A DNA stretch of 24,301 nucleotides. Source: a virus. The first letter of the stretch is position 1. The number at the start of each line of letters is the position of its first letter. The stretch lies in IMG/VR virus record IMGVR_UViG_3300008050_000308, positions 1 to 24,301 of that record; one strand, 5' to 3'. This document shows, in pieces, positions 11,501 to 24,301 of this stretch. The translations under genes and the position numbers were made by a program. The notes beneath the pieces are model-generated. The model was not told the DNA's origin. It did no database searches and saw only the letters and a program-made list of their open reading frames with translations.

Positions 11501-12063
11501 ACGCAGTGCTGTTTCCCGGTTTGCGTCGAATAAAGGGCTTGGAGATTGTAGATTGGACTCCGATGCACCGAATAAACCGGAAAGGCTCTGTCCGTCAGGT
11601 GCGAGAAGCACAAAAGAAACAACTAGTGAAGGTTCTTATGGAGGACGCTTATGGCGGCAGCATGGGCGGATTAGGTGGCAACATGGCCGCAGCCACAATG
11701 CAGACGCCCTCTCCGACGCGCCCCACCCCAACTCCTACGATTGATGACTTGATCGCAGATTGGGCAGAAGGAGGCGTCCAACTTTATGACGCGCCCACCG
11801 ATACAACCAACATGGCTTATCATGTTATGATGCCCGTTAGCGAACTTTGGCAATATGCCTCTACATACTATAGAGGAGACAAGCCAATGTTTGATGGGCA
11901 GTATCAGGCCTTCATTAAGGATGGTGCGACTGCGCCTGTCTATCTGGCTGTTGGCAAGAATGGTCTAGCAAAGATAACAGGGAATGAAGACATTGTTTGG
12001 TATGCAAAGAAAGCAGGTTTACAGGAGGTTCCGGTCTTTATTAGTTATCAGCGGCAAGTATAA
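8596..12063 (+). CDS. giant multidomain protein, 1155 aa, PcfJ-like segment and ParB-like C-terminus
   Basis: ATG 8596 is preceded by AGGAG (8582-8586). Regions in order are as follows. (1) 1-200: helical N-terminus. (2) About 235-320: DGSYWYNLGTSDCP, then MGHCGADSRGVLVSLR, YVTMTWN, LYQIKGRSN and WPHIRWFID, a pattern like PcfJ-type phage and mobile-element proteins. (3) 355-385: a coiled coil (EEKILEIEREVEQIESRFRD). (4) A long acidic central part. (5) About 885-985: an alpha/beta domain with ETAAEIRGINGVTTVRPVP, FEIKFELVG and FPGLRRIKGLEIVDW, ferredoxin-like. (6) About 1095-1155: FDGQYQAFIKDG, VYLAVGKNGLAKITGNED and ISYQRQV, reminiscent of the ParB/Srx fold. Its size suggests a virion-associated or injected protein, unproven. 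It is the largest gene in the window and has strong antisense shadows, which were ignored. Confidence 0.9.
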   Translation: MSISSSNWFKYLKEVRHGTDLGPAPEMIAEGLRDIGLPEYVIDRIESALPNAPEKAKTLLGNLWKNSSIGPGASALRGASSAAVTAAQEAAQFQLVEALADEYGSYLAAPDLDPEKKKKITLILSNLKNVVSKPYGAWRKAFMKAQKALSKVGVPSEKVEHTKETLQEFLEAHWAKWWRIYDEIGTFLNDDSANYKLAEDAREDDTGKIDIYELLQLAQGYLENKEDPEQILHTFDDGSYWYNLGTSDCPIEADRMGHCGADSRGVLVSLRKKKGKRRESSSYVTMTWNDHEEILYQIKGRSNDAPPSETWPHIRWFIDEMEIKRVEETGEHSNDYEGFVEMNQYLASHTYAKFADDIEEKILEIEREVEQIESRFRDARNELDVTDVGCSVESGEEYGGDPHSVVLSMSCDAEFEMDLGWPGFYEENGFYRATDGPDSERPLDYAEIPTNSWGSEASEFVGEIEIDDLAHELPGEDPETEWRIMMMEGASEKITAHLVVRLTNRHVEHVSDGDGAEEYDHYIDRVLEFDSDYQSYREKIRRGLVARGSIAKSPFDHAEQEMNEMELGHFVTYDDDSGIEFWFKPDISDVMAEGSLVYSEQKIPLFVPQYLLGISDSYGYEQTSTLYNRMFGPGPRRKTGEHLNKAMAARLQLAYKEKNAQAAKDQLSFDFGHDYTASEAALVLAEDSRFIIEPQDKGNYHQLGFSWRYTIGVGPQASPEEIQIVRDIVEYLDKHPQMVVNAAEGVIEEAMKPLEQAAQRQREQVLSPSFFVQVLSEIEWHGLASGASPEHANFRQILAWFEDAYDKMSDIEKYTMFKHYLIPASERRYRLFGPQNQVDTPEHGGGPRNFKDQVSTEMQNLGAPHAGRRYTARQNEGVEEQILRIEELLNESDPTYDLRIYSMTIGANVSNKLGGTEAETAAEIRGINGVTTVRPVPANKRRLTPHSEYIPFEIKFELVGALSRVNYRDAVLFPGLRRIKGLEIVDWTPMHRINRKGSVRQVREAQKKQLVKVLMEDAYGGSMGGLGGNMAAATMQTPSPTRPTPTPTIDDLIADWAEGGVQLYDAPTDTTNMAYHVMMPVSELWQYASTYYRGDKPMFDGQYQAFIKDGATAPVYLAVGKNGLAKITGNEDIVWYAKKAGLQEVPVFISYQRQV

Positions 12064-15191: not shown

Positions 15192-15422
15192 GTGTTAAAA
15201 AAAGGTCAATTGGTGCGATGGGTGGTTGACTATGAGGTCTTCGCCGCGTATAGTGATAGCAGTGGGGTAAAAGGCATTGGGCCTATTTACAAGTATGGAA
15301 TAGTAATGGAAGTTGGAAAAGGCAATAAGTCTATAGTTGTTTGCTGCTATGAGAAAGAAGACGCCGGTTGGATATTGCTCCATTTGGTTCATGATAAAAT
15401 CGAGGTTGTAAGTGAAAATTAA
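15192..15422 (+). CDS. small K-x-G-x-L-V family protein, 76 aa
   Basis: GTG 15192 is the start; a nearby ATG at 15190 would hit TAA after two codons. The motif KKGQLVRWVVDYEVF opens the protein, followed by strands (YKYGIVMEVGKGNKSIVVCC, WILLHLVHDKIEVV) and the ending V-V-S-E-N. It belongs to the family of short barrel-like proteins that recurs at least ten times here. Its final codons overlap the next gene's start out of frame (GTG 15412), a feature repeated elsewhere in the window. Likely function is unknown. Confidence 0.75.
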   Translation: MLKKGQLVRWVVDYEVFAAYSDSSGVKGIGPIYKYGIVMEVGKGNKSIVVCCYEKEDAGWILLHLVHDKIEVVSEN

Positions 15423-15804
15423 AGTTGGCGATTTGGTTTGTCTGCCCCGTCGGAAGACGCCGGGTATGGGTCTAGTGTTGAAACATCTCACTGACGTATC
15501 TACGCTCATTGGCATAGAGGAGCCGCACCAACTACTATCAGAGGTGGGCAGTCATAATTGGTTTAAGCGAGAGGCCGCCATTGTTAAGGTCGCAGATGAG
15601 TGTGGACTACCTGAAGTCACAAGAGCCTTCTTTTATTATAATTCAGGGCCCTTCAAGAAGTACAAGAACAGCTTTACATTGGTTAAATGGTTTAACGCGC
15701 CCTCCGCATGGGTGAAGCAACCTACAAAGGTAACGGAGCAGTACGCCGGCCCCACCGACGTTGACCCTATGTGGTATCCTAGTGACTGGATAAAGGCTTA
15801 CTAG
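15412..15804 (+). CDS. K-V-G-D-L-V family protein, 130 aa
   Basis: Starts at GTG 15412, whose bases also encode the V-S-E end of the preceding gene. MKIKVGDLVCLPRRKTPGMG leads into a strand pattern (LVLKHLTDVSTLIG), a longer insertion (AAIVKVADECGLPEVTRAFF) and an aromatic C-terminus (VKWFNAPSAWVKQ; PMWYPSDWIKAY). It is nearly twice the usual family size, with an added domain after the barrel. The role is unknown; the stop at 15802-15804 leaves 26 nt to the next gene. Confidence 0.78.
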   Translation: MKIKVGDLVCLPRRKTPGMGLVLKHLTDVSTLIGIEEPHQLLSEVGSHNWFKREAAIVKVADECGLPEVTRAFFYYNSGPFKKYKNSFTLVKWFNAPSAWVKQPTKVTEQYAGPTDVDPMWYPSDWIKAY

Positions 15805-15830
15805 AGGCACCTCCTGCGTTGAAAAGGATT

Positions 15831-16469
15831 ATGAAGACACTTATTGGCGACATAGCAGAGGCTCTCAACAGGACAGTCTGTCAGGGCTGGGATCGCACTT
15901 TCCTGGAGTCCATGCACAGCCAGCTTATGCGGCTATCTCCTCCGACACCTCGTCAGCAAGAGGTTCTTTATAGGGTCTTGGATCGTTGTGGGGCCTTGCA
16001 AGAAGACAAGCATGCCGAATGGGCGCTCGTTTATGAGACAGAATACAAGGCCCAGGCGCTAGCACTTGCTCATTATCACGCTAGAAAGTCATATTTTCAG
16101 CAGATTGCCAGGACTATTCTCCATGGAGAAGTTCCACAGCGACGAAAGTTTATGCGAATGCTGAATAATAAGTATTCCCAAAAAATTTGGTGTATCTACA
16201 ACACGCCCCCTCGATTGGAGACTGGAACGCATGTCAAACCTAGGGCAGCCTTCAATAGGTATTCTCATGTAGAGTCGGTGGTCAAGGCGGACTATGAAAG
16301 AGAACGCTCCGCCGTCACTCGCTTTGAGAAATACGGCGCTTTTATCGTGGGGACTGAAAAATATGTGTATTCGGCTGCTCGTGGTGGCAAGCGATATCGT
16401 CTTTTGCCCCCCGGCACATCCATTGTTTTTATCACAGAGGAGAGATTTTTAAAGATAATGAGATCCTAG
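15831..16469 (+). CDS. hypothetical 212-aa basic protein
   Basis: ATG 15831 is taken as start (TTG 15819 would add four residues; AAAAGGA sits between them). The N-terminal half is helical (LIGDIAEALNRTV, LTPRQ-like RLSPPTPRQQEVLYRVL, DKHAEWALVYETEYKAQALA) with an Arg/Lys-rich middle (QRRKFMRMLNNKYSQKIW). The C-terminal half is beta-rich and ends GKRYRLLPPGTSIVFITEER. The mix of basic patches suggests nucleic-acid binding, but no family is recognised. A short inverted repeat (GAGG..CCTC) lies just upstream. Confidence 0.7.
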   Translation: MKTLIGDIAEALNRTVCQGWDRTFLESMHSQLMRLSPPTPRQQEVLYRVLDRCGALQEDKHAEWALVYETEYKAQALALAHYHARKSYFQQIARTILHGEVPQRRKFMRMLNNKYSQKIWCIYNTPPRLETGTHVKPRAAFNRYSHVESVVKADYERERSAVTRFEKYGAFIVGTEKYVYSAARGGKRYRLLPPGTSIVFITEERFLKIMRS

Positions 16470-16484
16470 CTCTATAGTTAGTGT

Positions 16485-16811
16485 GTGACCGCTCGCCTGC
16501 CAAGATTTAAAAGAGGCGATCTAGTAAGGTGCCGCTATGATTTCCATTCCTACTACGTGCATGGGGGCAGTCATGGATTTGTCGGAGACAACGAACACTA
16601 CATATTTTATGGGCTCGTAACGAAGATAGAAGATGGCCAAGAAGGTTTCTGGGGGTGGGGACACCCTTACGTAGGTCCATATTATTCGGTATTATGCACT
16701 GATGGGCGCACCCGATATTTCACAGAAGACGAAATGACAGACGCAACAAAAGCAGAAATAGAAAATAATCCCTTGACAGGGTCCCAGAAATCTGATAAAT
16801 TAGAGAAGTAA
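16485..16811 (+). CDS. K-R-G-D-L-V family protein, 108 aa
   Basis: Starts at GTG 16485; no ribosome site is evident. PRFKRGDLVRCRYDFHSYYV is the family opening. A Gly/His/Trp/Tyr-rich middle follows (FVGDNEHYIFYGLVTKIEDG; GWGHPYVGPYYSVLCTDG), ending with RYFTEDEM. It is one of the larger members of the small-barrel paralogue group. The region 16773-16801 inside its 3' part holds a promoter for the following tRNA. No function is known. Confidence 0.72.
   Translation: MTARLPRFKRGDLVRCRYDFHSYYVHGGSHGFVGDNEHYIFYGLVTKIEDGQEGFWGWGHPYVGPYYSVLCTDGRTRYFTEDEMTDATKAEIENNPLTGSQKSDKLEK
16773..16801 (+). promoter_or_regulatory. promoter TTGACA-17-TAAATT for tRNA-Leu
   Basis: TTGACA (16773-16778), 17-bp spacer, TAAATT (16796-16801), within the 3' end of the preceding gene. 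The predicted start site near 16808 is 19 nt upstream of the tRNA. Confidence 0.65.
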
Positions 16812-16826
16812 ACAAAGTGAGGTTAA

Positions 16827-16900
16827 GGTTCCGTAGCCCAACCGGTAGAGGCACAGCACTCAAAATGCTGACAGTGTCGGTTCGAACCCGACCGGAACTA
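16827..16900 (+). tRNA. tRNA-Leu(CAA), class I body
   Basis: The cloverleaf is complete: acceptor GGTTCCG/CGGAACT (one G-U at the end), D-stem GCC/GGC, anticodon stem CAGCA/TGCTG with loop CTCAAAA (anticodon CAA, codon UUG), T-stem GTCGG/CCGAC with TTCGAAC loop, and A73. CCA is not encoded (CCC follows). The variable loop is only ACAGT (5 nt), whereas bacterial tRNA-Leu normally has a long variable arm, so the identity rests on the anticodon alone. Confidence 0.85.
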
Positions 16901-16935
16901 CCCTTTCTTCACAACAAAGACAAAGGCAAGACAAT

Positions 16936-17196
16936 ATGAAAAAGCCAGGAGAGGTATGGCACTGGCTCGATCAAGGCCCGGTTATTCTTTTACAGCCGGT
17001 AGAGGTTCCCGATCCTATTACCATGGAAGAGCTTGAAGAAGTATATGGGACATTAGAAGAATTTCGAAAATCTGATTGGCCAACAGAGGCAGGGTGGACG
17101 ATTAAGCTCCTAACAACCGGAGAAATACTCGATGTCCACCTAGATACCCTGCACGCAGGAACAGATATTTCGTCAACGAATTGTCAAGCTGGTTGA
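16936..17196 (+). CDS. hypothetical 86-aa protein, K-x-G-E-V-W start
   Basis: ATG 16936 lies 35 nt after the tRNA and probably shares its transcript. MKKPGEVWHWLDQGPVILLQ is a distant cousin of the K-V-G-D-L-V start. A Glu-rich helix follows (TMEELEEVYGTLEEFRKSDW), then WTIKLLTTGEILDVHLDTL. The ribosome site is weak (AAGGCAAG at 16921-16928). Its 3' end carries the 17193-17221 promoter region. Function unknown. Confidence 0.68.
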   Translation: MKKPGEVWHWLDQGPVILLQPVEVPDPITMEELEEVYGTLEEFRKSDWPTEAGWTIKLLTTGEILDVHLDTLHAGTDISSTNCQAG

Positions 17197-17221
17197 CTTT
17201 GTGGCGCTAATGGTCTATAAT
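17193..17221 (+). promoter_or_regulatory. sigma-70 promoter TTGACT-17-TATAAT
   Basis: TTGACT 17193-17198, 17-bp spacer, TATAAT 17216-17221, start near 17228. A second hexamer-like TTGTCA lies 12 nt upstream (17181-17186), faintly like the triple arrays at the right end. It serves genes 17247 and 17480 and the tRNAs Ser and Arg. Confidence 0.75.
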
Positions 17222-17246
17222 AGATATATCTGATGGAGGATGAAGT

Positions 17247-17471
17247 ATGAAAGCGATGTTGTTCGTAGTGTTGACGCTGGGTGAAGTCCTGGCCATCACG
17301 TCTACAGACGCGACGGTGGTGATCTCTGTTGCTAGCGAGTGTGCTGATGAAGTGGAGCGTGTCAAGAAGACGTTATCTCTTGATGATTTTCCTTGCGATC
17401 CGTATCCGGGTATGCTATTCTATTATACGGAATTGGGTCACATGCGCTGCGGTGAACCAGAGCCAAGTTAG
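17247..17471 (+). CDS. hypothetical 74-aa protein, hydrophobic N-terminus
   Basis: GGAGG at 17235-17239 precedes ATG 17247. MKAMLFVVLTLGEVLAI looks like a short hydrophobic segment, possibly an export signal or anchor. The rest holds SVASECADEVERVKKTLSL, a Cys-Pro-rich stretch (FPCDPYPGMLFYY) and HMRCGEPEPS. Three Cys suggest an exported or disulfide-bonded peptide. First gene behind the 17193 promoter. Confidence 0.7.
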   Translation: MKAMLFVVLTLGEVLAITSTDATVVISVASECADEVERVKKTLSLDDFPCDPYPGMLFYYTELGHMRCGEPEPS

Positions 17472-17479
17472 GAGAACCT

Positions 17480-17695
17480 ATGACTTACACTGTGATTTTT
17501 GTAGACGACGATGGGCAGTATTCCCAAGAAATTCATATAGGCACCCACGATGTGCGCCGCACATGGCGTGATATTCAGTTGTTGGTAGACCAAGATGATG
17601 CCAACGGATGGTACGGCACTTCGATTCTTGCCATTATTCCAGGAAGGCACGAAGTTTATTTTGAGCGCACCGTGAGAGAAGGTAACTCTTCATAG
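17480..17695 (+). CDS. hypothetical 71-aa protein
   Basis: AGGAG (17470-17474) precedes ATG 17480. It is beta-rich: MTYTVIFVDDDGQYSQEIHI, then GTHDVRRTWRDIQLLV, then WYGTSILAIIPGRHEVYFE. The stop is only 8 nt from the tRNA-Ser, with which it likely shares a transcript. No family is recognised. Confidence 0.68.
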   Translation: MTYTVIFVDDDGQYSQEIHIGTHDVRRTWRDIQLLVDQDDANGWYGTSILAIIPGRHEVYFERTVREGNSS

Positions 17696-17703
17696 GGTGC
17701 AAT

Positions 17704-17789
17704 GGTGAAATGACCGAGTGGACGAAGGTGCTCGCCTGGAAAGCGAGTGAAGTTAATAGCTTCCGTAGGTTCGAATCCTACTTTCACCG
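17704..17789 (+). tRNA. tRNA-Ser(GGA)
   Basis: Acceptor GGTGAAA/TTTCACC (perfect), anticodon stem CTCGC/GCGAG with loop CTGGAAA (anticodon GGA, codon UCC), long class II variable arm GAAG/CTTC as expected for Ser, T-stem GTAGG/CCTAC, G73. CCA is not encoded (CCC follows). Confidence 0.93.
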
Positions 17790-17802
17790 CCCCTTCCCCT
17801 AT

Positions 17803-17880
17803 GCGCCCTTAGCTCAGTTGGAATAGAGCAAAAGCCTTCTAAGCTTTAGGTCGTAGGTTCGAATCCTACAGGGCGTACCA
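17803..17880 (+). tRNA. tRNA-Arg(TCT)
   Basis: Acceptor GCGCCCT/AGGGCGT with a terminal G-U, D-stem GCTC/GAGC, anticodon stem AAAGC/GCTTT with loop CTTCTAA (anticodon TCT, codon AGA), T-stem GTAGG/CCTAC, A73, encoded CCA. AGA is often rare in proteobacterial hosts but common in AT-leaning phage genes, e.g. the AGA-AGA-AGG run at 6941-6949. Confidence 0.93.
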
Positions 17881-17901
17881 TTATAAACCCAGGAGTCAAC
17901 A

Positions 17902-18120
17902 ATGAAGAAAGAAGCAGTTAGCCATCCACTGCATTATAACGCCACTAAAATGGAAGTTATTGATGCAATCGCTGGGCTAGGACATGCTGAGGGATTCTGC
18001 GTGGGCAACATTATTAAATACGTCACACGTTATAGGCACAAGGGAGGAGTGGAAGATTTAAAGAAAGCCAAGTGGTATATTGATTACATGATTGAGAATT
18101 GCGAAAACAAGGAACACTGA
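17902..18120 (+). CDS. DUF3310-type protein (T7 gp1.7 C-terminal-like), 72 aa
   Basis: The 72-aa protein is the whole small domain: SHPLHYN (residues 7-13), EVIDAIAGLGHAEGFCVGN, then IIKYVTRYRHKGGVEDLKKA, then KWYIDYMIE. This is the highly conserved phage DUF3310 pattern, the module found at the C-terminus of T7 gene 1.7, reported to have nucleotide kinase activity in full-length form. Whether the short version is active is open. AGGAG (17889-17893) supports ATG 17902. Confidence 0.93.
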   Translation: MKKEAVSHPLHYNATKMEVIDAIAGLGHAEGFCVGNIIKYVTRYRHKGGVEDLKKAKWYIDYMIENCENKEH

Positions 18121-18121
18121 T

Positions 18122-18421
18122 ATGAGAGATATGAAGCAACAGAAGAACAATACAATTTTGAACCCGTGGTGGATGAGCGTAGCTCTTCTGATCACAACGA
18201 CGGCAACCGCGGCCACCTACGTCAATGTAGTAAATATGACAGAGACGGTGGCAGAGCGCGATTACCTTATGGACGGAAAGGCACACTATCTTCCAGGAAA
18301 GGTGTGCATTATTGATGCAGACGCCGCGACAGCGCCCGAAGATATTGTGATGTTTGCGCGAGCATGCAGCAAGGCGCATGAGCAATGGATCGGGGGACCA
18401 GAAGAGCAGGAAGAGCTTTAG
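18122..18421 (+). CDS. hypothetical 99-aa membrane-anchored protein
   Basis: ATG 18122 follows AAGGAA (18109-18114). Residues ~16-36 (WWMSVALLITTTATAATYV) form one membrane segment after a short basic head (MRDMKQQKNN). The periplasmic or soluble part has two Cys (VCIIDADAATAPED; FARACSKAHEQW) and an acidic tail. Its stop (TAG 18419-18421) lies within the end of the opposite-strand gene at 18418. Confidence 0.68.
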   Translation: MRDMKQQKNNTILNPWWMSVALLITTTATAATYVNVVNMTETVAERDYLMDGKAHYLPGKVCIIDADAATAPEDIVMFARACSKAHEQWIGGPEEQEEL

Positions 18422-18435
18422 TAATCGCTCTTTTT
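18411..18435 (+). terminator. terminator between convergent genes
   Basis: AAGAGC (18411-18416), 10-nt loop, GCTCTT (18427-18432), followed by more T (TTTCTT). The hairpin spans the overlapping stop codons of the two convergent genes. It works best in the + direction; on the minus strand the T-tract is missing. Confidence 0.6.
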
Positions 18436-18714
18436 CTTGCTGAGAAGAACTCCATCAACGTATCCCGGCGGACACTTCGCAATAATAAAGCGCCAGCCCA
18501 TCCATTTGGGATTATGGAGGGCATCGCGTAAAAAAGGCTCTATCGGTAGATTGGGGTTTTCTACCTCAAGATAGAGAGTTACATGAGGCCCGCCATCATC
18601 AGAGGTTATTCTCGCGAGAAATCTCCCATCGAATAAACCAGCAACATGCTGCATTAATTTGGAAATCGCCTCTTCGCGAGGTGCCTTTTCGCCAGAAAAA
18701 TATTTATTTGCCAT
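18418..18714 (-). CDS. hypothetical 98-aa protein, the only minus-strand gene
   Basis: The coding sequence runs from ATG at 18712-18714 (complement) to a stop at 18418-18420. A ribosome site GAGGT lies about 9 nt upstream on the minus strand (complement of 18724-18728). The protein reads MANKYFSGEKAPREEAISKL, HVAGLFDGRFLARITSDDGG, PHVTLYLEVENPNLPIEPF, then WMGWRFIIAKCPPGYVDGVL, like a genuine folded protein of unknown type. It overlaps the convergent gene by four bases and is divergent from tilS, with ~100 bases between them. Confidence 0.8.
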   Translation of the reverse strand: MANKYFSGEKAPREEAISKLMQHVAGLFDGRFLARITSDDGGPHVTLYLEVENPNLPIEPFLRDALHNPKWMGWRFIIAKCPPGYVDGVLLSKKKSDY

Positions 18715-18762
18715 GCTTGATGTACCTCATTTAGTATATAGAGGACGATAGCGCTAAACCCC

Positions 18763-18791
18763 TTGACATCTAAGACGACATCGTCTATAAT
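18763..18791 (+). promoter_or_regulatory. tilS: consensus sigma-70 promoter for tilS
   Basis: TTGACA (18763-18768), 17-bp spacer, TATAAT (18786-18791), both perfect. The transcription start is expected near 18798 with ATG 18815 just downstream; AGAGAG precedes the start codon. Confidence 0.85.
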
Positions 18792-18814
18792 AGAAAAAGA
18801 TTAGAGAGAGCAGC

Positions 18815-19420
18815 ATGATTCACATTCTTGGACAGATTCCTCGACAAGTCGCTATCGCGGTGAGCGGAGGGGTAGACAGTATGGCTGTCTTGGATTTCCT
18901 GCGCCGTAGTCGCGATGTGACGGCTCTTCACTACAATCACGGGACACCCTACGCGCCAAAGGCAGAAGCTCTTGTGAGGGAATACTGCGCCGCTCAAGGG
19001 GTGTCTTTGATTGTAGGCAAGTGTGAAGAGGAGATGCCCGCGGGTGTGTCCCACGAGGCTTGGTGGAGACAGCAGCGCTATAAGTTTTTTAACGAAAGTA
19101 CCGAGCGAAAGATTATCACTGCCCATCATTTGGATGATTGTGTGGAGAATTGGGTTTTCACATCTATGCACGGCAACCCATTCTTGATTCCTTATGAGCG
19201 AGATCAGTTTATCCGACCATTTCTAACCACAGAGAAGCAGTCTTTTAACGACTGGTGCGAAAGGAAGAGTGTCCCGGTCATTACAGATCCCAGCAACACT
19301 AACACAAAGTATCGTAGAAACTACATTCGTCACGTAATGCTGCCGCATGTCCTGGAGATCAACCCAGGGATTAAAAAGACAATTCGACGTAAAGTCGTTG
19401 ACATGTATCCCGTAAAGTGA
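18815..19420 (+). CDS. tilS: tRNA(Ile)-lysidine synthetase, minimal N-terminal form
   Basis: The enzyme uses ATP to attach lysine to C34 of the CAU-anticodon tRNA(Ile), so that it reads AUA rather than AUG. Visible motifs: PP-loop SGGVDS (residues 17-22), HYNHG, TAHHLDD (102-108), IRPFL, then DPSNTNTKYRRNYIRHVMLP (158-177), the TilS-specific block. At 201 aa it lacks the C-terminal domains of the ~430-aa E. coli enzyme and is shorter than the ~310-aa Aquifex form. It lies immediately upstream of a CAT-anticodon tRNA, and AUA codons occur in the window (e.g. I29 of the 1155-aa protein), which makes the pair a coherent decoding module. The TilS assignment is firm; activity of so short a version is inferred. 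Confidence 0.95.
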   Translation: MIHILGQIPRQVAIAVSGGVDSMAVLDFLRRSRDVTALHYNHGTPYAPKAEALVREYCAAQGVSLIVGKCEEEMPAGVSHEAWWRQQRYKFFNESTERKIITAHHLDDCVENWVFTSMHGNPFLIPYERDQFIRPFLTTEKQSFNDWCERKSVPVITDPSNTNTKYRRNYIRHVMLPHVLEINPGIKKTIRRKVVDMYPVK

Positions 19421-19426
19421 TATTAT
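19398..19426 (+). promoter_or_regulatory. promoter TTGACA-17-TATTAT inside the end of tilS
   Basis: TTGACA 19398-19403 and TATTAT 19421-19426 with a 17-bp spacer. The -35 box is coding sequence of tilS; the -10 starts one base after its stop. It should drive tRNA-Ile and tRNA-Asn (start near 19433). Confidence 0.7.
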
Positions 19427-19447
19427 AGGATATAAACAAAACCTTAA

Positions 19448-19525
19448 TGCCCACTAACTCAATCAGGTAAGAGTGCCGTTCTCATAAAACGGAAGTTCTC
19501 GGTTCGAGTCCGAGGTGGGCTACCA
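19448..19525 (+). tRNA. tRNA-Ile(CAT), predicted lysidine-modified
   Basis: Acceptor TGCCCAC/GTGGGCT with a U1-U72 mismatch, D-stem ACTC/GAGT, anticodon stem CCGTT/AACGG with loop CTCATAA (anticodon CAT), T-stem CTCGG/CCGAG, A73, encoded CCA. The initiator features (three G-C pairs below the anticodon, purine at 11) are absent: position 11 is C and the lower stem is GTT/AAC. C4-G69 and C5-G68 are the pairs reported for tRNA(Ile2) recognition by TilS, while elongator tRNA-Met differs there. Together with adjacent tilS this favours Ile2 over Met. Confidence 0.88.
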
Positions 19526-19548
19526 TTTTTAAACAACAAAAACTTAAA

Positions 19549-19567
19549 CCTAAAATTTTCTTGCCCC
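19549..19567 (+). repeat. direct repeat copy 1, CCTAAAATTTTCTTGCCCC
   Basis: A 19-nt sequence immediately in front of tRNA-Asn (its last bases are in the acceptor arm), repeated with one mismatch at 19778-19796. Confidence 0.85.
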
Positions 19568-19638
19568 TTAGCTCAGTTGGTTAGAGCGCAAAATTGTTAA
19601 TTTTGATGTCCCCGGTTCAAGTCCGGGAGGGGCAGCCA
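19562..19638 (+). tRNA. tRNA-Asn(GTT)
   Basis: Acceptor TGCCCCT/AGGGGCA, D-stem GCTC/GAGC, anticodon stem CAAAA/TTTTG with loop TTGTTAA (anticodon GTT, codons AAC/AAU), T-stem CCCGG/CCGGG with TTCAAGT, G73, encoded CCA. Confidence 0.95.
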
Positions 19639-19645
19639 TTGAAAA

Positions 19646-19722
19646 GGGAGTAGGCGCAAAAACGGATCACTTGGAACGCCAACGTATATAGGCCAAGTCT
19701 CAAGTCCTGAGCGCCTACTCCC
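19646..19722 (+). ncRNA. strongly structured 77-nt RNA element of unknown family
   Basis: A perfect 12-bp stem GGGAGTAGGCGC (19646-19657) / GCGCCTACTCCC (19711-19722) encloses further helices: ACTTGG (19669-19674) / CCAAGT (19693-19698) and, as an alternative ending, CTCA/TGAG (19699-19702/19708-19711). A competing hairpin TTGG-AACG-CCAA (19671-19682) would break the middle helix, so a two-state fold is possible. It sits directly after tRNA-Asn in the tRNA operon, lacks a downstream U-tract, and no open frame in it looks coding. I recognise no known family (not a terminator, tRNA, hammerhead, tmRNA or preQ1 type by its visible features). Confidence 0.65.
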
Positions 19723-19777
19723 CCAAAGGGCGGCCATTTTAAAAAAGAATAGAGAGTTACAGACGGAAAGCCTTCCG

Positions 19778-19796
19778 CCTAAAATTTTCTTTCCCC
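19778..19796 (+). repeat. direct repeat copy 2, CCTAAAATTTTCTTTCCCC
   Basis: Second copy of the pre-tRNA 19-mer (one mismatch with 19549-19567), here not followed by a foldable tRNA. Confidence 0.85.
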
Positions 19797-19803
19797 ACCG
19801 CAC

Positions 19804-19821
19804 ACAACCGCGACAACCGCG
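19804..19821 (+). repeat. tandem 9-mer ACAACCGCG x2
   Basis: ACAACCGCG repeated exactly at 19804-19812 and 19813-19821 in the non-coding part in front of the 19851 gene. Confidence 0.8.
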
Positions 19822-19850
19822 CAAAAACCCACACATTTTAAAGAATTTTC

Positions 19851-20174
19851 ATGCCCTACATGCTCAACAAAGTTGTACAATGTGCCGACGGATTTGCCAT
19901 GTCTGTTCAGGCTAGCCAATTTTCATATTCTAACCCCCGCGTGGACGATGCCGACGAATACACACACGCCGAAGTCGGCATGCCGAACAAAGAAGACGAA
20001 CTTCTCATGCCATGGGCCGAAGACCATGAAACCCCAACAACAACCGTCTACCCATACGTGCCCCGGCAATTGATCATTAACGTCATCGCAAAGCACGGCG
20101 GAATGATTGGCGGAGATCTCCCCGCAGGATTTCCATATTTATATGCACCAGGAGCAAAAAAGCACCCTAGTTAG
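19851..20174 (+). CDS. widespread phage hypothetical protein, M-S-V-Q-A-S family, 107 aa
   Basis: ATG 19851 begins MPYMLNKVVQCADGFAMSVQ followed by ASQFSYSNPR; later parts are YTHAEVGMPNKEDELLMPW and TTVYPYVPRQLIINVIAKHGG. The combination F-x-M-S-V-Q-A, E-V-G-x-P, L-x-P-x-A-E-D and V-Y-x-Y-V-P recurs in many phage proteins of unknown role (from memory). It is thus a real, conserved gene despite the weak ribosome site (AAGAA, 19839-19843). Confidence 0.85.
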   Translation: MPYMLNKVVQCADGFAMSVQASQFSYSNPRVDDADEYTHAEVGMPNKEDELLMPWAEDHETPTTTVYPYVPRQLIINVIAKHGGMIGGDLPAGFPYLYAPGAKKHPS

Positions 20175-20180
20175 TATAGT

Positions 20181-20576
20181 ATGCTGATCAGCAAATCTTT
20201 GGTGCTTTTTCTACTTATAAGCTGTGGGTTCACCTCCGATGCTGCTTATGACTCATCAACGGGAACAACTGCTGCCAATTTTGCCGGTACGCTCCTGCAA
20301 TTTGACAAGCTTTACGCGGACCACTGCTTTATGCTGCTGTGCATGACCCCGGATTGTACGCAAAAAGGGACATACGTTATCCAAGAAAAAACCGGGTATC
20401 TAGAAGATAAAGGATGGGCGTGGAGTTACGACCCGCCGCATGACTATGTACTAGATGGACGAACACTAGAGATATACCCAAAGTCTAATGGATGCTGGGA
20501 TGTTTATGCGGACACTTTTATGGGCATAGAGACAGAAGCTTGCCCATGTACTTTAGACCTATACGAGGAAAAATAA
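20181..20576 (+). CDS. predicted lipoprotein, 131 aa, Cys-rich
   Basis: Residues 1-15 MLISKSLVLFLLISC form a lipoprotein signal: basic head, hydrophobic core and lipobox L-I-S-C15. After lipidation the mature protein would start at Cys15 and sit on the periplasmic face. The mature part carries seven further Cys (ADHCFMLLCMTPDCTQ, NGCWDV, TEACPCT), suggesting disulfides. Candidate functions are superinfection exclusion or envelope modification, but none is shown by homology. The start follows the previous stop by 6 nt with no clear ribosome site. Confidence 0.8.
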   Translation: MLISKSLVLFLLISCGFTSDAAYDSSTGTTAANFAGTLLQFDKLYADHCFMLLCMTPDCTQKGTYVIQEKTGYLEDKGWAWSYDPPHDYVLDGRTLEIYPKSNGCWDVYADTFMGIETEACPCTLDLYEEK

Positions 20577-20577
20577 A

Positions 20578-20871
20578 ATGAATTGGAAGTTTGCGATGAT
20601 TCTGGTAGAAATCGAAGAAATTACCGGCGAAGAAGTCTGTGAACTTGTAGAAATCTACAATTTTAATACCGAAGAGGCCGACAAGAGCCCTGCCTTTTGT
20701 AAGGCGCGAATCATGAGCCCTGAAGAATTAGCTGTCGCTCATTATGATGTTGATCGTGATGGCGTTAATCGCTGGTTTTATGAGAACGGGAGATTTACTT
20801 TTAAGTGGTCCATGCTCACGGGCGAACGTGAAGTTGATTGGATCGCGAATTCGAATTCGGACAAGGATTAA
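20578..20871 (+). CDS. hypothetical 97-aa acidic protein
   Basis: GAGG (20566-20569) precedes ATG 20578, which follows the previous stop by one base. It is acidic (EIEEITGEEVCELVEIYNFN, MSPEELAVAHYDVDRDG) with a C-terminal strand pair (WFYENGRFTFKW). No family is recognised. A small hairpin AACTG-GAG-CAGTT follows its stop but has no U-tract. Confidence 0.7.
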   Translation: MNWKFAMILVEIEEITGEEVCELVEIYNFNTEEADKSPAFCKARIMSPEELAVAHYDVDRDGVNRWFYENGRFTFKWSMLTGEREVDWIANSNSDKD

Positions 20872-20911
20872 ACTGGAGCAGTTCCCCTCTTGACCTGACT
20901 ACATAATTAAA

Positions 20912-21124
20912 ATGTCCAATTCCCGCATACAAGTTGGAGACCTAATCCGCAGTTGGTGGATTGACCATGTAGAGTGGGGGTTCGGGGTTGTTGTATCAGT
21001 ACCAGAATATGAAGACTACATATATGCGGCGTTTCCACATTATGGAGTTAATCTAGTTTATGTCGACGAAATTGAAGTTATCAGCAGTGAAGGTCGGATC
21101 TATCTTGAAGGCGTTGTGGGCTGA
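20912..21124 (+). CDS. K-V-G-D-L-V family protein, 70 aa, read-through end
   Basis: MSNSRIQVGDLIRSWWIDHV is the family start; strands follow (GFGVVVSVPEYEDYIYAAFP, VNLVYVDEIEVISSEGR). Where related members stop after E-x-R, this copy has GGATCT instead of GGTGAT and reads on for eight residues (IYLEGVVG) to TGA 21122-21124. It overlaps the following paralogue out of frame (GTG 21087). Confidence 0.78.
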   Translation: MSNSRIQVGDLIRSWWIDHVEWGFGVVVSVPEYEDYIYAAFPHYGVNLVYVDEIEVISSEGRIYLEGVVG

Positions 21125-21266
21125 CGGTCTGGAAGTTATCGGTGCTTATGAAAAAGAAGAGCGCGGCTATATTATTTTAAGATCGCTGGAAGATAACGAA
21201 AGAATTGTCTGCAACCGGCATCATGTCAGCTTCGAAGTGGTTTCTGAGCCCGACCCGGAGCCTTGA
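21087..21266 (+). CDS. K-V-G-S-L family protein, 59 aa, nested start
   Basis: GTG 21087 is chosen because it gives MKVGSILKALWADG, the family start, although ATG 21060 is open 27 bases upstream. The gene overlaps its predecessor by 38 bases. The ending FEVVSEPDPEP is again the V-V-S-E pattern. The protein is probably a single small barrel. Function unknown. Confidence 0.72.
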   Translation: MKVGSILKALWADGLEVIGAYEKEERGYIILRSLEDNERIVCNRHHVSFEVVSEPDPEP

Positions 21267-21316
21267 CGTCCTCTTGACAAAAAAGGCTTGACTTTCCTGG
21301 AGAAGTCGTCTATAAT
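21263..21316 (+). promoter_or_regulatory. triple TTGAC promoter array 1
   Basis: TTGACG (21263), TTGACA (21274) and TTGACT (21288), spaced 11 and 14 nt, with TATAAT at 21311-21316, 17 bp after the last. The first hexamer overlaps the end of the preceding gene. Same layout as arrays 2-4. Confidence 0.75.
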
Positions 21317-21339
21317 GTTTAGGAAGCTTGGAGAAGTGA

Positions 21340-21426
21340 GTGATCGATTTCTGCATCAAAGTGTTTTTGATTAAAGTAGGCTACTACAGCACCATATTTT
21401 TTATTATGCCGGCTGTTGGAGTTTAA
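21340..21426 (+). CDS. possible 28-aa hydrophobic peptide
   Basis: GTG 21340 with GGAG at 21330-21333 (6 nt spacing) opens MIDFCIKVFLIKVGYYSTIF, then FIMPAVGV, ending TAA 21424-21426. The peptide is mostly hydrophobic, like a membrane microprotein. Its stop lies within the ribosome site of the next gene, a typical coupling. The short length makes the call tentative. Confidence 0.35.
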   Translation: MIDFCIKVFLIKVGYYSTIFFIMPAVGV

Positions 21427-21427
21427 A

Positions 21428-21622
21428 GTGTCCCTGAAAAAGAATAACGCAACTCGTGTCGCACATATTAAAAAGAATATGCGGGCCCAAGCTAGTATTG
21501 ACCGAGAAAACTATTTCGCCAATGGAGGCGAAGCATCTCGGTGGAGAGGCCTTCGTCTTGTCACCACGGACAAGAAGAAGAAAACAAATAAACGCGCATG
21601 TCGCGGGAGGATGTGGACGTGA
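21428..21622 (+). CDS. very basic small protein, 64 aa, K-R-A-C-R-G-R end
   Basis: GTG 21428 is preferred over TTG 21416 because GGAG (21418-21421) lies 6 nt upstream. The protein is strongly basic (MSLKKNNATRVAHIKKNMR, DKKKKTNKRACRGRMWT) with an aromatic middle (RENYFANGGEASRWRGLRL). The R-A-C-R-G-R tail is seen in other small phage proteins (recollection). Nucleic-acid binding is plausible. The stop TGA overlaps the next GTG start. Confidence 0.7.
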   Translation: MSLKKNNATRVAHIKKNMRAQASIDRENYFANGGEASRWRGLRLVTTDKKKKTNKRACRGRMWT

Positions 21623-21825
21623 AGAATTTAAAGGTGGGGGATCTGCTGGAATGGCATGCCCCTAAGTCCAAGGTCCGCGCTGCGAAGGCCGCCGGCGACA
21701 GTCGATGGTACGCGCTTGTCGTTAAACTTGAGCAGCCACACATTTGGATTAAGTGGCTCGCCAATGGCGAGGTCGAGGATGCAATGCGCTCTTCGGCTAA
21801 TATTAGGGTCGTAAGCAGGAAGTAA
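21619..21825 (+). CDS. K-V-G-D-L-L family protein, 68 aa
   Basis: GTG 21619 is chosen over ATG 21598 because GGGAGG (21604-21609) is 9 nt upstream and the start shares bases with the preceding stop (GTGA). MKNLKVGDLLEWHAPKSKV, then RWYALVVKLEQPHIWIKWLA, then GEVEDAMRSSANIRVVSRK. The last part carries the R-V-V-S variant of the family ending. Function unknown. Confidence 0.76.
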   Translation: MKNLKVGDLLEWHAPKSKVRAAKAAGDSRWYALVVKLEQPHIWIKWLANGEVEDAMRSSANIRVVSRK

Positions 21826-21828
21826 ACA

Positions 21829-22023
21829 ATGAGAGTTGGTGATCTGGTTCGATGTACATATAGTGATATTGCCGGCGCTATGGCACCAGTCGTCGGCGTC
21901 ATCATTGCCTTGCAGCTTAAGCAAAACTCGTTTACACCGGCGGTTAGAGTGCATATCGGCTCTCAAAACAAGAAAGTTTGGTTTCTCGTCGAAGACGTAA
22001 AGGTGATTAATGAAGGTCGGTGA
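21829..22023 (+). CDS. R-V-G-D-L-V family protein, 64 aa
   Basis: AGGAAG (21817-21822) precedes ATG 21829. MRVGDLVRCTYSDIAGAMAP, then VVGVIIALQLKQNSF, then VRVHIGSQNKKVWFLVEDVK, ending V-I-N-E-G-R. The ending bases encode the next start (ATG 22010) in another frame, the family's chain arrangement. Confidence 0.8.
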   Translation: MRVGDLVRCTYSDIAGAMAPVVGVIIALQLKQNSFTPAVRVHIGSQNKKVWFLVEDVKVINEGR

Positions 22024-22189
22024 TTTGGTAAGACTCTCGATCCTTGATTATCCGCAGTACCGGGGGAAGATTGGAGTACTCGTGCGAGAGCATGGTGTTG
22101 ATCGTTGGCGTGTGTATATCGCAGGACGAACGCATCCGTACCTCGTTCATGGTGCCGCGGCGCTTCCCGTCGCGCCCCTTGCAGCTTAG
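22010..22189 (+). CDS. K-V-G-D-L-V family protein, 59 aa
   Basis: ATG 22010 opens MKVGDLVRLSILDYPQYRG, then KIGVLVREHGVDRWRVYIA, then TYPYLV-like THPYLVHGAAALPVAPLAA, ending TAG 22187-22189. The start overlaps the VINEGR end of the previous gene by 14 nt. It is a typical family member with an R-x-x-V core and a short Ala/Pro tail. Confidence 0.75.
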   Translation: MKVGDLVRLSILDYPQYRGKIGVLVREHGVDRWRVYIAGRTHPYLVHGAAALPVAPLAA

Positions 22190-22212
22190 CCATCATAGGG
22201 CATCTACCGCAC

Positions 22213-22267
22213 TTGACATTCGCTTTACAACTTCGTGCTTGACTTCTGCTCATGCATGTGGGATAAT
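22213..22267 (+). promoter_or_regulatory. triple TTGAC promoter array 2
   Basis: TTGACA (22213), TTTACA (22224) and TTGACT (22239), spaced 11 and 15 nt, GATAAT at 22262-22267 (17-bp spacer). Part of a repeated block shared with arrays 3 and 4. Confidence 0.75.
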
Positions 22268-22294
22268 ATAGCATATTCAAACGGGAGCATAAAC

Positions 22295-22486
22295 ATGTCC
22301 GAAGAACCTACCTCCTCTCTCGATGAGGATCGCTACCTTACTTCAATGGAAGCTGTAGCTCACCGCCTTGAAATGGCGATGACTATGCTGGTGTTGTGGC
22401 AGCAGGCGCACGAAGAAACCGGTTCTGAAATGACCGAACTCTTGGTCACTTCGTTTGCCGCATGCGCAATTCCAGCCGAGGCTTAA
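22295..22486 (+). CDS. hypothetical 63-aa helical protein
   Basis: GGGAGC (22283-22288) supports ATG 22295, 28 nt behind the promoter. MSEEPTSSLDEDRYLTSMEA starts it; the remainder is a long helix (VAHRLEMAMTMLVLWQQAHE) and an acidic end (GSEMTELLVTSFAACAIPA). It may be a small coiled-coil or membrane-associated protein. No family is recognised. Confidence 0.7.
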   Translation: MSEEPTSSLDEDRYLTSMEAVAHRLEMAMTMLVLWQQAHEETGSEMTELLVTSFAACAIPAEA

Positions 22487-22488
22487 CA

Positions 22489-22851
22489 ATGGGTTATCGC
22501 TCAGAAGTCATCCTGGCAATTGGCCCCGATATCGTGCCGCACTTTATGACTCTCATGGCTCGGTGTCCCCAAGCCCGCGAACTTTGCTGGTCGCAGTCAA
22601 GTGAACTGATCAAAGATTACGCGGCAATCGAGGGCGCCCTGTGCTTTAGATGGGCATCTATCAAGTGGTATGAATCTTATGTCGGAGTCCGCGCCATTCA
22701 GCAATTCCTTTCGTGGTGCGAAGACGAGGGCCCTGATGGTATCGATGCCACGGAACACTTCCGCTTTGTGCGTATCGGTGAAGAAATGGACGACACCACC
22801 TTGCTTGGCTATGGCTTTAGTATTCACGTCGAGCGTGTTATTTCTTATTGA
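22489..22851 (+). CDS. phage hypothetical protein, M-G-Y-R-S-E-V family, 120 aa
   Basis: CGAGG (22478-22482) precedes ATG 22489. MGYRSEVILAIGPDIVPHFM is a start shared by a broad family of phage proteins of unknown role (recollection). The rest is alpha/beta with several Trp (CWSQSSELIKDYAAIEGALC, FRWASIKWYESYVGVRAIQQ, FRFVRIGEEMDDT). It starts 3 bases after the preceding stop and ends just before promoter array 3. Confidence 0.85.
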   Translation: MGYRSEVILAIGPDIVPHFMTLMARCPQARELCWSQSSELIKDYAAIEGALCFRWASIKWYESYVGVRAIQQFLSWCEDEGPDGIDATEHFRFVRIGEEMDDTTLLGYGFSIHVERVISY

Positions 22852-22902
22852 CATTCTCTTAACAACTTTGCTGTTGACTTCTGCCGCGCGGCATGGTAAA
22901 TT
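22848..22902 (+). promoter_or_regulatory. triple TTGAC promoter array 3
   Basis: TTGACA (22848), TTAACA (22859) and TTGACT (22874), spaced 11 and 15 nt, TAAATT at 22897-22902 (17-bp spacer). The first hexamer overlaps the end of the preceding gene. Confidence 0.72.
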
Positions 22903-22928
22903 ATAAGGGTAATCAGCGAGGACCACAC

Positions 22929-23270
22929 ATGGCATATCTTAAGAAAAACGATCTTGTAATCATTCGTAATACGGACACAACCATCCAGGCGCGTGTTGTT
23001 GACATGCAGTTCCGGCGCTTTAAGCGCTCTTGGCAGGATAAGAAGACCGGTGAATGGAAGTACCGATGGAAGTCGGTGCCTTACGCGATCTGTGAGTGCT
23101 TCCTGGGTGCTCCGATGGGAACCGAATTTCTCATTCCTGGCTACAAGCTGAAGAATGAAACCAAGGACGGCGAGAAGCTCCTGGTTCTGCGTGATAAGTA
23201 CGCAGCAGAGTTTGATGGAAGCTGGGTGCGGCAGATGCTAGCAGACAGCAAGGAAAAGCGGAGCGCGTAA
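22929..23270 (+). CDS. hypothetical 113-aa protein, K-K-N-D-L-V start
   Basis: GAGG (22918-22921) supports ATG 22929. MAYLKKNDLVIIRNTDTTIQ is a divergent version of the K-V-G-D-L-V opening. A basic, aromatic loop follows (RRFKRSWQDKKTGEWKYRWK) and then PYAICECFLGAPMGTEFLIP and DGEKLLVLRDKYAAEFDGSW. It is the largest member near the right end and has a nucleic-acid-binding look. Its stop shares a base with the next start (TAATG, 23268-23272). Confidence 0.75.
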   Translation: MAYLKKNDLVIIRNTDTTIQARVVDMQFRRFKRSWQDKKTGEWKYRWKSVPYAICECFLGAPMGTEFLIPGYKLKNETKDGEKLLVLRDKYAAEFDGSWVRQMLADSKEKRSA

Positions 23271-23530
23271 TGACTGACGCTGAGTTATATAATACCGATA
23301 TCAGCTTGTCGCCTGAAGAAGTCGCTGTTGTCTTGGCAGCCCTTCGGACGGGGATTAACCACGCGGCCTCGCCCGTCGAGGTAGACATTCTGAAGCGCGT
23401 CGAGCTACGCCTGATCCGAGCGTGGCCCGGCCCGCATGCGCACCGGTGGCGTAATGAATCCGCGGAGGATGAAGAGGCTCCAGAGCCACGCTCGCCGCGG
23501 CTGACGATGCCGGAATGGGGAGGGTTTTAG
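23270..23530 (+). CDS. hypothetical 86-aa protein
   Basis: ATG 23270 overlaps the preceding TAA by one base. The first 55 residues are helical (MTDAELYNTDISLSPEEVAV, VLAALRTGINHAASPVEVDI, LKRVELRLIRAWPG) and the remainder is acidic and Pro-rich (WRNESAEDEEAPEPRSPRLT). The stop at 23528-23530 overlaps the GTG start of the SWIM gene. Higher GC than its neighbours. No family is recognised. Confidence 0.7.
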   Translation: MTDAELYNTDISLSPEEVAVVLAALRTGINHAASPVEVDILKRVELRLIRAWPGPHAHRWRNESAEDEEAPEPRSPRLTMPEWGGF

Positions 23531-23865
23531 TGGAGTTTCCGATCAAGACCCGCATTCCACCCATCCTAATGACATCCGTTGTCAATGGTCAGCGCTATGC
23601 AATTGCCGGGAGTCACTGGATTGAAGTGCCCCCGGAGACCACGCGCGAGGACTTAGACAAGTACTTCACCTGGGAGCCCTACAGACCGCCTGAGAGCGGC
23701 TCCAGCGGCTCCGACGGCTCCTGGACGGTCACAGGTAGCAAGGGCGCCCAATACACCGTCAGAAGGCGGCAGGAGGCTTGGACGTGCAGTTGTCCCGGCT
23801 TTGGCTTCCGCCGCCGCTGCAAGCATGTGACCAACATGAAGGCACAGCTTGAAGGCGCAGAATAA
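23530..23865 (+). CDS. SWIM zinc-finger protein, 111 aa
   Basis: GTG 23530 is chosen over ATG 23515 because GGGGAGGG (23516-23523) sits 6 nt upstream. Residues ~62-104 hold a strand pair (GSWTVTGSKGAQYTVRRRQE) followed by WTCSCPGFGFRRRCKHVTNM: the SWIM pattern C86-x-C88-x8-C97-x-H99. SWIM domains bind DNA or proteins. The N-terminal part (VVNGQRYAIAGSHWIEVPPE) is a small beta-rich unit of its own. This is the clearest named domain in the right third. Confidence 0.9.
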   Translation: MEFPIKTRIPPILMTSVVNGQRYAIAGSHWIEVPPETTREDLDKYFTWEPYRPPESGSSGSDGSWTVTGSKGAQYTVRRRQEAWTCSCPGFGFRRRCKHVTNMKAQLEGAE

Positions 23866-23869
23866 GCGC

Positions 23870-23924
23870 TTGACATTCACTTGACAACTTTGGGGTTGAC
23901 TTTAGCATCAGCATGTGGGATAAT
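23870..23924 (+). promoter_or_regulatory. triple TTGAC promoter array 4
   Basis: TTGACA (23870), TTGACA (23881) and TTGACT (23896), spaced 11 and 15 nt, GATAAT at 23919-23924 (17-bp spacer). It serves the last K-V-G-D-L-V genes. Confidence 0.75.
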
Positions 23925-23957
23925 GTATACATGATGAACCCTACCCCGGACAAATGT

Positions 23958-24167
23958 ATGAAAGTCGGTGATCTGGTAAAAATAACTGGAAGATGTGAAC
24001 CGGGCCGAATTATATTATTGCTCAAATCACATGGTAGAAGAAGCTACAATCTTGGAAAAGATGTAGGTGAGTTGTTTGCGGGTATTCCGCTGGGAGCATC
24101 GTTAGGCGTGGAAACTGATTACTTTGTTTTTGAAAATAATGCTGAGGTTATCAGTGAAAGTCGGTGA
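23958..24167 (+). CDS. K-V-G-D-L-V family protein, 69 aa
   Basis: ATG 23958 opens MKVGDLVKITGRCEPG. Earlier in-frame ATGs at 23931 and 23934 lie at or near the expected transcription start, so they are less likely. The core (RIILLLKSHGRRSYNLGKDV, DYFVFENNAEV) is barrel-like and ends I-S-E-S-R. These final bases carry the GTG start of the next gene. Function unknown. Confidence 0.76.
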   Translation: MKVGDLVKITGRCEPGRIILLLKSHGRRSYNLGKDVGELFAGIPLGASLGVETDYFVFENNAEVISESR

Positions 24168-24301
24168 TTTAGTAAAGCACACAAAGAGAGGACAAACCTT
24201 TATCGGTCTTATTACTAAGAAGATCGACTGGTCCCCGGATAGCAGTAAACTCGATAAGTGGGCTGTCCTGTACAACGGACAAGAGCGGAATTGTATCGCT
24301 C
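24154..24301 (+). CDS. K-V-G-D-L-V family protein, cut by the window end
   Basis: GTG 24154 overlaps the I-S-E-S-R end of the preceding gene out of frame and begins MKVGDLVKHTKRGQTFIGLI, then TKKIDWSPDSSKLDKWAVL, then YNGQERNCIA, still open at the last base. It is the last visible link of the overlapping family chain. Confidence 0.75.
   Translation, partial: MKVGDLVKHTKRGQTFIGLITKKIDWSPDSSKLDKWAVLYNGQERNCIA

Follow-up and report, generated by a model that had tools for sequence, protein, structure and literature searches.

Results

Organization of the tilS locus

The window, by which we mean the whole 24.3-kb stretch of DNA analysed here (an IMG/VR record), carries genes for a GroEL, a ClpP-type protease and five tRNAs. 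An open reading frame on the plus strand (18815..19420) encodes a TilS of 201 aa that consists of the catalytic N-terminal domain only. The gene for a tRNA with a CAU anticodon, most likely tRNA-Ile2 and with its CCA encoded, begins 28 bases past the tilS stop codon (19448..19525, plus strand). The next gene of the cluster is tRNA-Asn(GUU) at 19562..19638, and the upstream part comprises tRNA-Ser(GGA) and tRNA-Arg(UCU) at 17703..17880, all on the plus strand. Upstream of tilS, a sequence matching a sigma-70-type promoter at 12 of 12 consensus bases (TTGACA-17-TATAAT; 18763..18791, plus strand) is, jointly with that of locus L038, the best such match among phage tilS upstream regions. A candidate second promoter with 11 of 12 consensus bases and a TG before the -10 element (TTGACA-17-TATTAT; 19398..19426, plus strand) overlaps the end of tilS, just upstream of tRNA(CAU).

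The window comes from a large tailed phage. Around tilS it matches two contigs of 191 and 195 kb in gene content and gene order, and the 195-kb relative encodes terminase, major head protein, ribonucleotide reductase, PhoH and the alpha subunit of DNA polymerase III. The phage GroEL (4627-6210), which is 70% identical to that of the 195-kb relative, lies upstream of tilS near the ClpP-type protease (2201-2845). A protein of 1155 aa (8596-12063) is kept in relatives at up to 47% identity and gave no match in Pfam or PHROGs. About ten small proteins among the many small ORFs of 15192-24290 open with a similar K-V-G-D-L-V-R pattern (e.g., those starting at 15412, 16485, 20912, 21598, 21829 and 23913); they are perhaps a tandem family of small paralogues of KOW/SH3-like type.

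Gains and losses of tRNA genes distinguish even near-identical phages, which differ in the order and content of the cluster. The CAA-anticodon tRNA of the window (16827-16902) is a class I molecule of 76 nt without a long variable arm, a structure that is odd for leucine. At the same site (1214-1299), contig L004, from a phage otherwise about 97.5% identical, has a normal class II tRNA-Leu of 86 nt: one tRNA gene has been exchanged for another here. Similarly, the tRNA-Arg(UCU) of the window (17794-17889) is absent at the matching place in L004 (2190-2299). Just past tRNA-Asn, the segment 19646-19722 contains a perfect 12-bp stem, GGGAGUAGGCGC/GCGCCUACUCCC, around about 50 nt, followed by GGGCGGCCA. 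This element folds better than shuffled sequences (z -2.6), had no match in an Rfam search, and is possibly a small structured RNA or a degenerate tRNA-like element.

The encoded protein is a TilS by family and fold

The NCBI equivalog model for the N-terminal domain of lysidine synthetase (TIGR02432, lysidine_TilS_N) matches the window protein at 118.6 bits, above its cut-off of 93.6, and PF01171 matches at 117.7 bits. The score was 59 bits with the full-length TilS model and 28.9 bits with the TtcA model, far under the cut-off of 272 for the latter. The strongest sequence relatives in the PDB are all TilS (1wy5, 3a2k and 1ni5, from Aquifex, Geobacillus and E. coli). The PP-loop motif SGGVDS (residues 17-22, codons at 18863..18880, plus strand), HHLDD (104-108) and DPSN...RRN (158-169) can be read directly and are intact, and the TilS motifs HHxDDxxE and (D/E)xSN...RNxxR are both present. 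An AlphaFold2 model built with 48 phage sequences reached a pLDDT of 94.2 and a pTM of 0.89. By fold, the top five PDB structures are all TilS, with TM values of 0.80-0.84 over the query; A. aeolicus TilS ranks first (TM 0.83 over the query), and TtuA comes next after TilS. The protein has cysteines at positions 58, 70, 109 and 148 and no CXXC pair, which makes the iron-sulphur chemistry of TtcA and TtuA unlikely.

These results agree with the initial annotation, which had described a 201-aa TilS with intact motifs, had suggested a minimal, dedicated form of the enzyme, and had named a better fit to TtcA as an observation that would speak against it; the protein passes the TilS cut-off, fits TtcA no better and has the catalytic domain only. 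Phage-specific libraries were uninformative, as a search of PHROGs with the window protein returned nothing at E<=1e-3. PHROGs version 4 has no family for this phage TilS; the entries nearest to it, QueC and PAPS reductase, are weak matches, and pipelines for phage annotation may therefore give it a wrong name.

A uniform family of short TilS proteins in phages

A profile-guided scan found relatives of the window TilS on at least 398 IMG/VR contigs. We retrieved 80 of the 398 confirmed contigs, which gave 78 complete ORFs; 75 of these encode proteins of 196-209 aa and the other three proteins of 240 aa. TIGR02432 was matched at E<=1e-3 by all 48 phage relatives scanned. Among the 48 phage sequences, S17, G18, G19, D21 and S22 of the PP-loop are invariant, as are R85, R88, Y89, H104, D108, E111, R134, D158, N161, R168, N169 and R172. 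Between phage relatives dN is 0.16-0.32, and dS is either saturated or 1.46 and above, for which reason we report no dN/dS ratio. The protein is under purifying selection.

The closest bacterial TilS is at most 38% identical to phage TilS. Bacterial relatives have 291-668 aa, with the exception of one frame of 221 aa that is probably broken. In a maximum likelihood tree, the 46 phage sequences, which include PA5oct and two huge phages of 635 and 642 kb, fall on one side of a branch and the 28 bacterial sequences on the other (SH-aLRT 99, stem length 1.41). A recent acquisition of tilS from a host is rejected on this topology, with 46 of 46 phage sequences on one side at a support of 99. Short records labelled as Listeria, Staphylococcus, Salmonella or E. 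coli phage, with matches at 26-34% identity, resemble host DNA within phage assemblies, and we excluded them.

Phage TilS lacks both C-terminal domains

In type I TilS, the acceptor stem of the tRNA is read by a C-terminal domain, and essential residues sit about 60 Angstrom from the active site. To our knowledge, all characterised TilS distinguish tRNA-Ile2 from tRNA-Met, both of which have a CAU anticodon, through appended C-terminal domains. In the window TilS, CTD1 and CTD2 are both absent: Pfam detects PF01171 only, and the model closes with a helix at residues 186-197. The protein is roughly half as long as E. coli TilS, and its match to the type II enzyme of A. aeolicus (about 311-317 aa) spans about two thirds. 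Bacterial TilS are classified as type I, with CTD1 and CTD2, and type II, without CTD2 (PMC12514573). The catalytic domain, motifs and fold of both types are the same as in the window TilS, which nevertheless fits neither: type I has both C-terminal domains, type II has CTD1 only, and the phage enzyme has none. As residues of CTD2 were reported to be essential in type I TilS (PMC12514573), the domain-only enzyme might lack activity or depend on a partner. The mean net charge of the C-terminal stretch, at the place where a longer enzyme would run on into CTD1, is +2.6 in phage TilS and a slightly acidic -0.5 in the aligned bacterial stretch, which suggests that a basic C-terminal end may have taken over the contact to RNA.

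Identity of the adjacent tRNA(CAU)

The tRNA gene was found by ARAGORN and scores 56.4 bits with the Rfam tRNA model. Read directly, its 5' part is TGCCCAC TA ACTC AATCAGGTAA GAGT G CCGTT CTCATAA AACGG, and the rest is AAGTT CTCGG TTCGAGT CCGAG GTGGGCT A CCA. It has CAU in a CUCAUAA loop, A73, a U31-A39 pair, and the pairs C4-G69 and C5-G68 listed in the initial annotation. That annotation also saw no initiator features. This holds for the anticodon stem, CCGUU/AACGG, in which the GGG/CCC of initiators (29-31/39-41) is absent, and for a profile score that favours Ile2 over fMet by +46.6 bits; it overlooked a U-U mismatch at 1-72. A mismatch at this position is an initiator trait, and U1-U72 is unusual for an elongator.

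The profiles were made from 26 Ile2, 28 elongator Met and 33 initiator tRNAs of bacterial genomes, with classes anchored on E. coli genes annotated as tRNA-Ile and tRNA-Met, and the classifier had a leave-one-out accuracy of 86/87. The check with an Ile2/Met classifier that the annotation had called for pointed clearly neither to Met nor to initiator; it leaned weakly towards Ile2, at +6.4 bits over Met, when bacterial Ile2 tRNAs give +15 to +73. The tRNAs linked to tilS in four close relatives lean slightly towards Met (-1.5 to -4.9 bits), and that of L014 is clearly Met-like by profile (-26 bits). Firm Ile2 scores were obtained for other linked tRNAs (L085, +69; L077, +63; L066, +45; L090, +29; L032, +28 bits).

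A U31-A39 pair is present in 11 of 13 linked tRNAs and in none of 87 bacterial CAU tRNAs. It is likewise absent from the ten CAU tRNAs in reference phage records, T2 included, and occurs in one of 20 other CAU tRNAs of TilS phages, that one on a contig with a TilS of the window clade. The ambiguous tRNAs of the window clade have this pair, together with A15-U48, in common with the linked tRNAs of L077, L085, L090 and L032. It is chiefly because of the linkage and these shared features that we take the window tRNA(CAU) to be, most likely, tRNA-Ile2.

The dominant identity elements of E. coli TilS are C4-G69 and C5-G68 (PMC12514573). Of the 26 bacterial Ile2 tRNAs, 24 have these pairs; of the 13 linked phage tRNAs, 5 do (Fisher p = 0.0007, uncorrected for relatedness). 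In relatives with a TilS 70-75% identical to that of the window, the linked tRNA has G4-C69 with either A5-U68 or G5-C68. As the pairs of relatives differ in this way and the enzyme has no acceptor-contacting domains, the two pairs are not the basis of recognition in the family; as a family rule they are rejected, being lost in 8 of 13 linked tRNAs. An enzyme that has no domain for reading the acceptor stem would tolerate such a loss; the obvious candidate for a feature that phage TilS may read in its place is the anticodon arm with U31-A39.

Linkage of tilS and tRNA(CAU)

Clustering at 80% identity gave 42 clusters of phage TilS. In ten of them a tRNA gene follows tilS within 1 kb, and the first such gene is CAU in every case, 15-562 bases away; among all tRNAs of the TilS loci, 18 of 124 are CAU. 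A TilS gene directly upstream of a CAT-anticodon tRNA, as first described for the window alone, is thus a recurrent arrangement, and this recurrence argues that the pairing is not due to chance. The ten clusters are spread over about five deep lineages of the tree (the window clade, L066, L075, L077 and L085), so shared descent explains the linkage only in part. In many members of the family no CAU tRNA lies within 5 kb of tilS, and phages without close linkage mostly bear an Ile2-like CAU tRNA elsewhere (G013, G014, G019 and G025).

AUA usage

In the window, 12.5 of every 1000 codons are AUA; the two contigs of about 190 kb reach 14.1 and 20.3. The figure for E. coli is 4.9, presumably per thousand (Table 1, PMC12514573). 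The AUA share of isoleucine codons in the window is 21%, somewhat below the 29% predicted by third-position composition, and AUA is therefore a regular but not a favoured codon. Across 42 phage TilS loci (L019-L089), ATA is the most depleted codon in tilS, where it supplies 9.3% of isoleucine codons; its share in neighbouring genes is 25%, and none of 5000 resamplings gave so low a value. No such depletion was seen in bacterial tilS. A flanking ClpP-type family is as depleted as phage tilS (observed/expected 0.37 and 0.38, respectively), and we do not claim a self-avoidance of AUA specific to tilS.

Discussion

We propose, with a probability of roughly three in four, that the domain-only phage TilS lysidinylates the adjacent phage tRNA-Ile2(CAU), recognised by its anticodon arm, to boost the decoding of AUA. 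Both genes would probably be transcribed early by the host RNA polymerase from the predicted sigma-70-type promoters. Phage TilS would then adenylate the phage tRNA at C34 and join lysine to this base, and the host isoleucyl-tRNA synthetase would charge the lysidinylated tRNA with isoleucine, such that AUA is read. The expected benefit would be an increased capacity for AUA decoding during infection. Because CTD1 and CTD2 are missing, the substrate would be identified through the anticodon arm rather than the acceptor stem, perhaps with a contribution from the basic C-terminal helix. The description of the pair as a self-contained module in the initial annotation goes too far, as charging, the modification of A37, lysine and ATP would still come from the host.

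One alternative is that phage TilS mainly modifies host tRNA-Ile2, or any CAU tRNA, and that its neighbour is an ordinary elongator tRNA-Met which shares the tRNA cluster merely by coincidence. The weak profile call for the window tRNA, the undecided or Met-leaning calls in sister phages, the absence of the E. coli identity pairs from the sister tRNAs and the many TilS phages that have no CAU tRNA nearby would all fit such a scheme. It leaves the invariable position of CAU as first downstream tRNA in ten clusters from about five lineages without an explanation, and the linked tRNAs of other lineages are clear Ile2. The ambiguous tRNAs, moreover, share U31-A39 with these and differ in it from every bacterial CAU tRNA, and we regard this alternative as unlikely. 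Somewhat less likely still is a role in counter-defence, in which the phage supplies a modified Ile2 in place of a host tRNA that is destroyed or limited by host defences or by host shut-off, and TilS keeps the replacement decodable. Replacement of cleaved host tRNAs by phage tRNA sets is known, and the cluster has four further tRNAs whose order and content vary between near-identical phages. No nuclease directed against Ile2(CAU) is known to us, however; none was found in the window, and PADLOC returned no specific match there. Such a role would be compatible with the main explanation.

That the protein is a PP-loop enzyme of other chemistry, i.e., 2-thiolation as by TtcA or TtuA or a QueC-like base synthesis, could be argued from the rank of TtuA among the fold matches and from the weak PHROGs relatives. 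We consider this very improbable in view of the scores with the TilS and TtcA models, the strongest PDB sequence relatives, which are all TilS, the missing CXXC and the presence of the C-terminal TilS signature (D/E)xSN...RNxIR. The probability is slighter again that the 201-aa protein is the decaying remnant of a longer TilS, which its half-size and the loss of both C-terminal domains might call to mind; the narrow range of lengths among complete relatives, the invariant catalytic residues, the single clade with a long stem and the purifying selection led us to reject it.

Within the preferred reading, in which phage TilS modifies the adjacent tRNA-Ile2, a further and rather tentative possibility is that enzyme and tRNA are a co-evolved pair. 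Phage TilS may have dropped the reading of the acceptor stem and recognise the arm with U31-A39, which would leave the stem of the tRNA free to drift from C4-G69/C5-G68. If host TilS is unable to act on tRNAs with G4-C69 and A5-U68 or G5-C68, the phage enzyme would be obligatory in these phages and some members of the family would be orthogonal to host TilS.

Viral TilS for AUA decoding is a known idea. TilS has been reported from the Pseudomonas jumbo phages vB_PaeM_MIJ3 and PA5oct, and the passages of that paper considered here suggest a role in the maintenance of host viability and mention neither missing domains nor a cognate tRNA (PMC6892783). These proteins resemble that of the window in being about 203 aa long, 44% identical, of the same phage clade and restricted to the catalytic domain; in contrast to the window, about 5.6 kb separate their tilS from the nearest tRNA, and there is no adjacent CAU tRNA. 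The Ralstonia jumbo phage RsoM2USA similarly combines a TilS with a large tRNA set, but its TilS has 349 aa and Rickettsiella as the nearest named relative, and by the description in the paper is a longer, separate form (PMC8504454). The same logic has been proposed for chloroviruses, which, unlike the window phage, are viruses of algae: a TilS accompanied by tRNA clusters is transcribed very early and would aid a virus that uses more AUA than its host does (PMC7589089). In T4-like phages, as here, a phage CAU tRNA with Ile signatures is thought to be lysidinylated, though by the TilS of the host (PMC1524935), whereas in the window phage the enzyme travels with the tRNA. Lysidine has been reported in vivo on a tRNA(CAU) of a vibriophage (reported in PMC13191261). 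In the open-access literature searched, which leaves subscription papers outside, we came across no account of the missing domains, of how widespread the family is, of a linkage to a cognate tRNA or of the shared U31-A39.

In conclusion, a domain-only TilS with its tRNA is widespread in large phages, ordinary in kind and new in form. The short enzyme and the neighbouring tRNA make the minimal needs of Ile2/Met discrimination directly testable and, if the pair is orthogonal to the host, would offer a useful starting point for recoding of the AUA codon. Counting phage tRNAs solely by anticodon misses AUA decoding, because such tRNAs are annotated as tRNA-Met, and some phages bring the modifying enzyme together with the tRNA.
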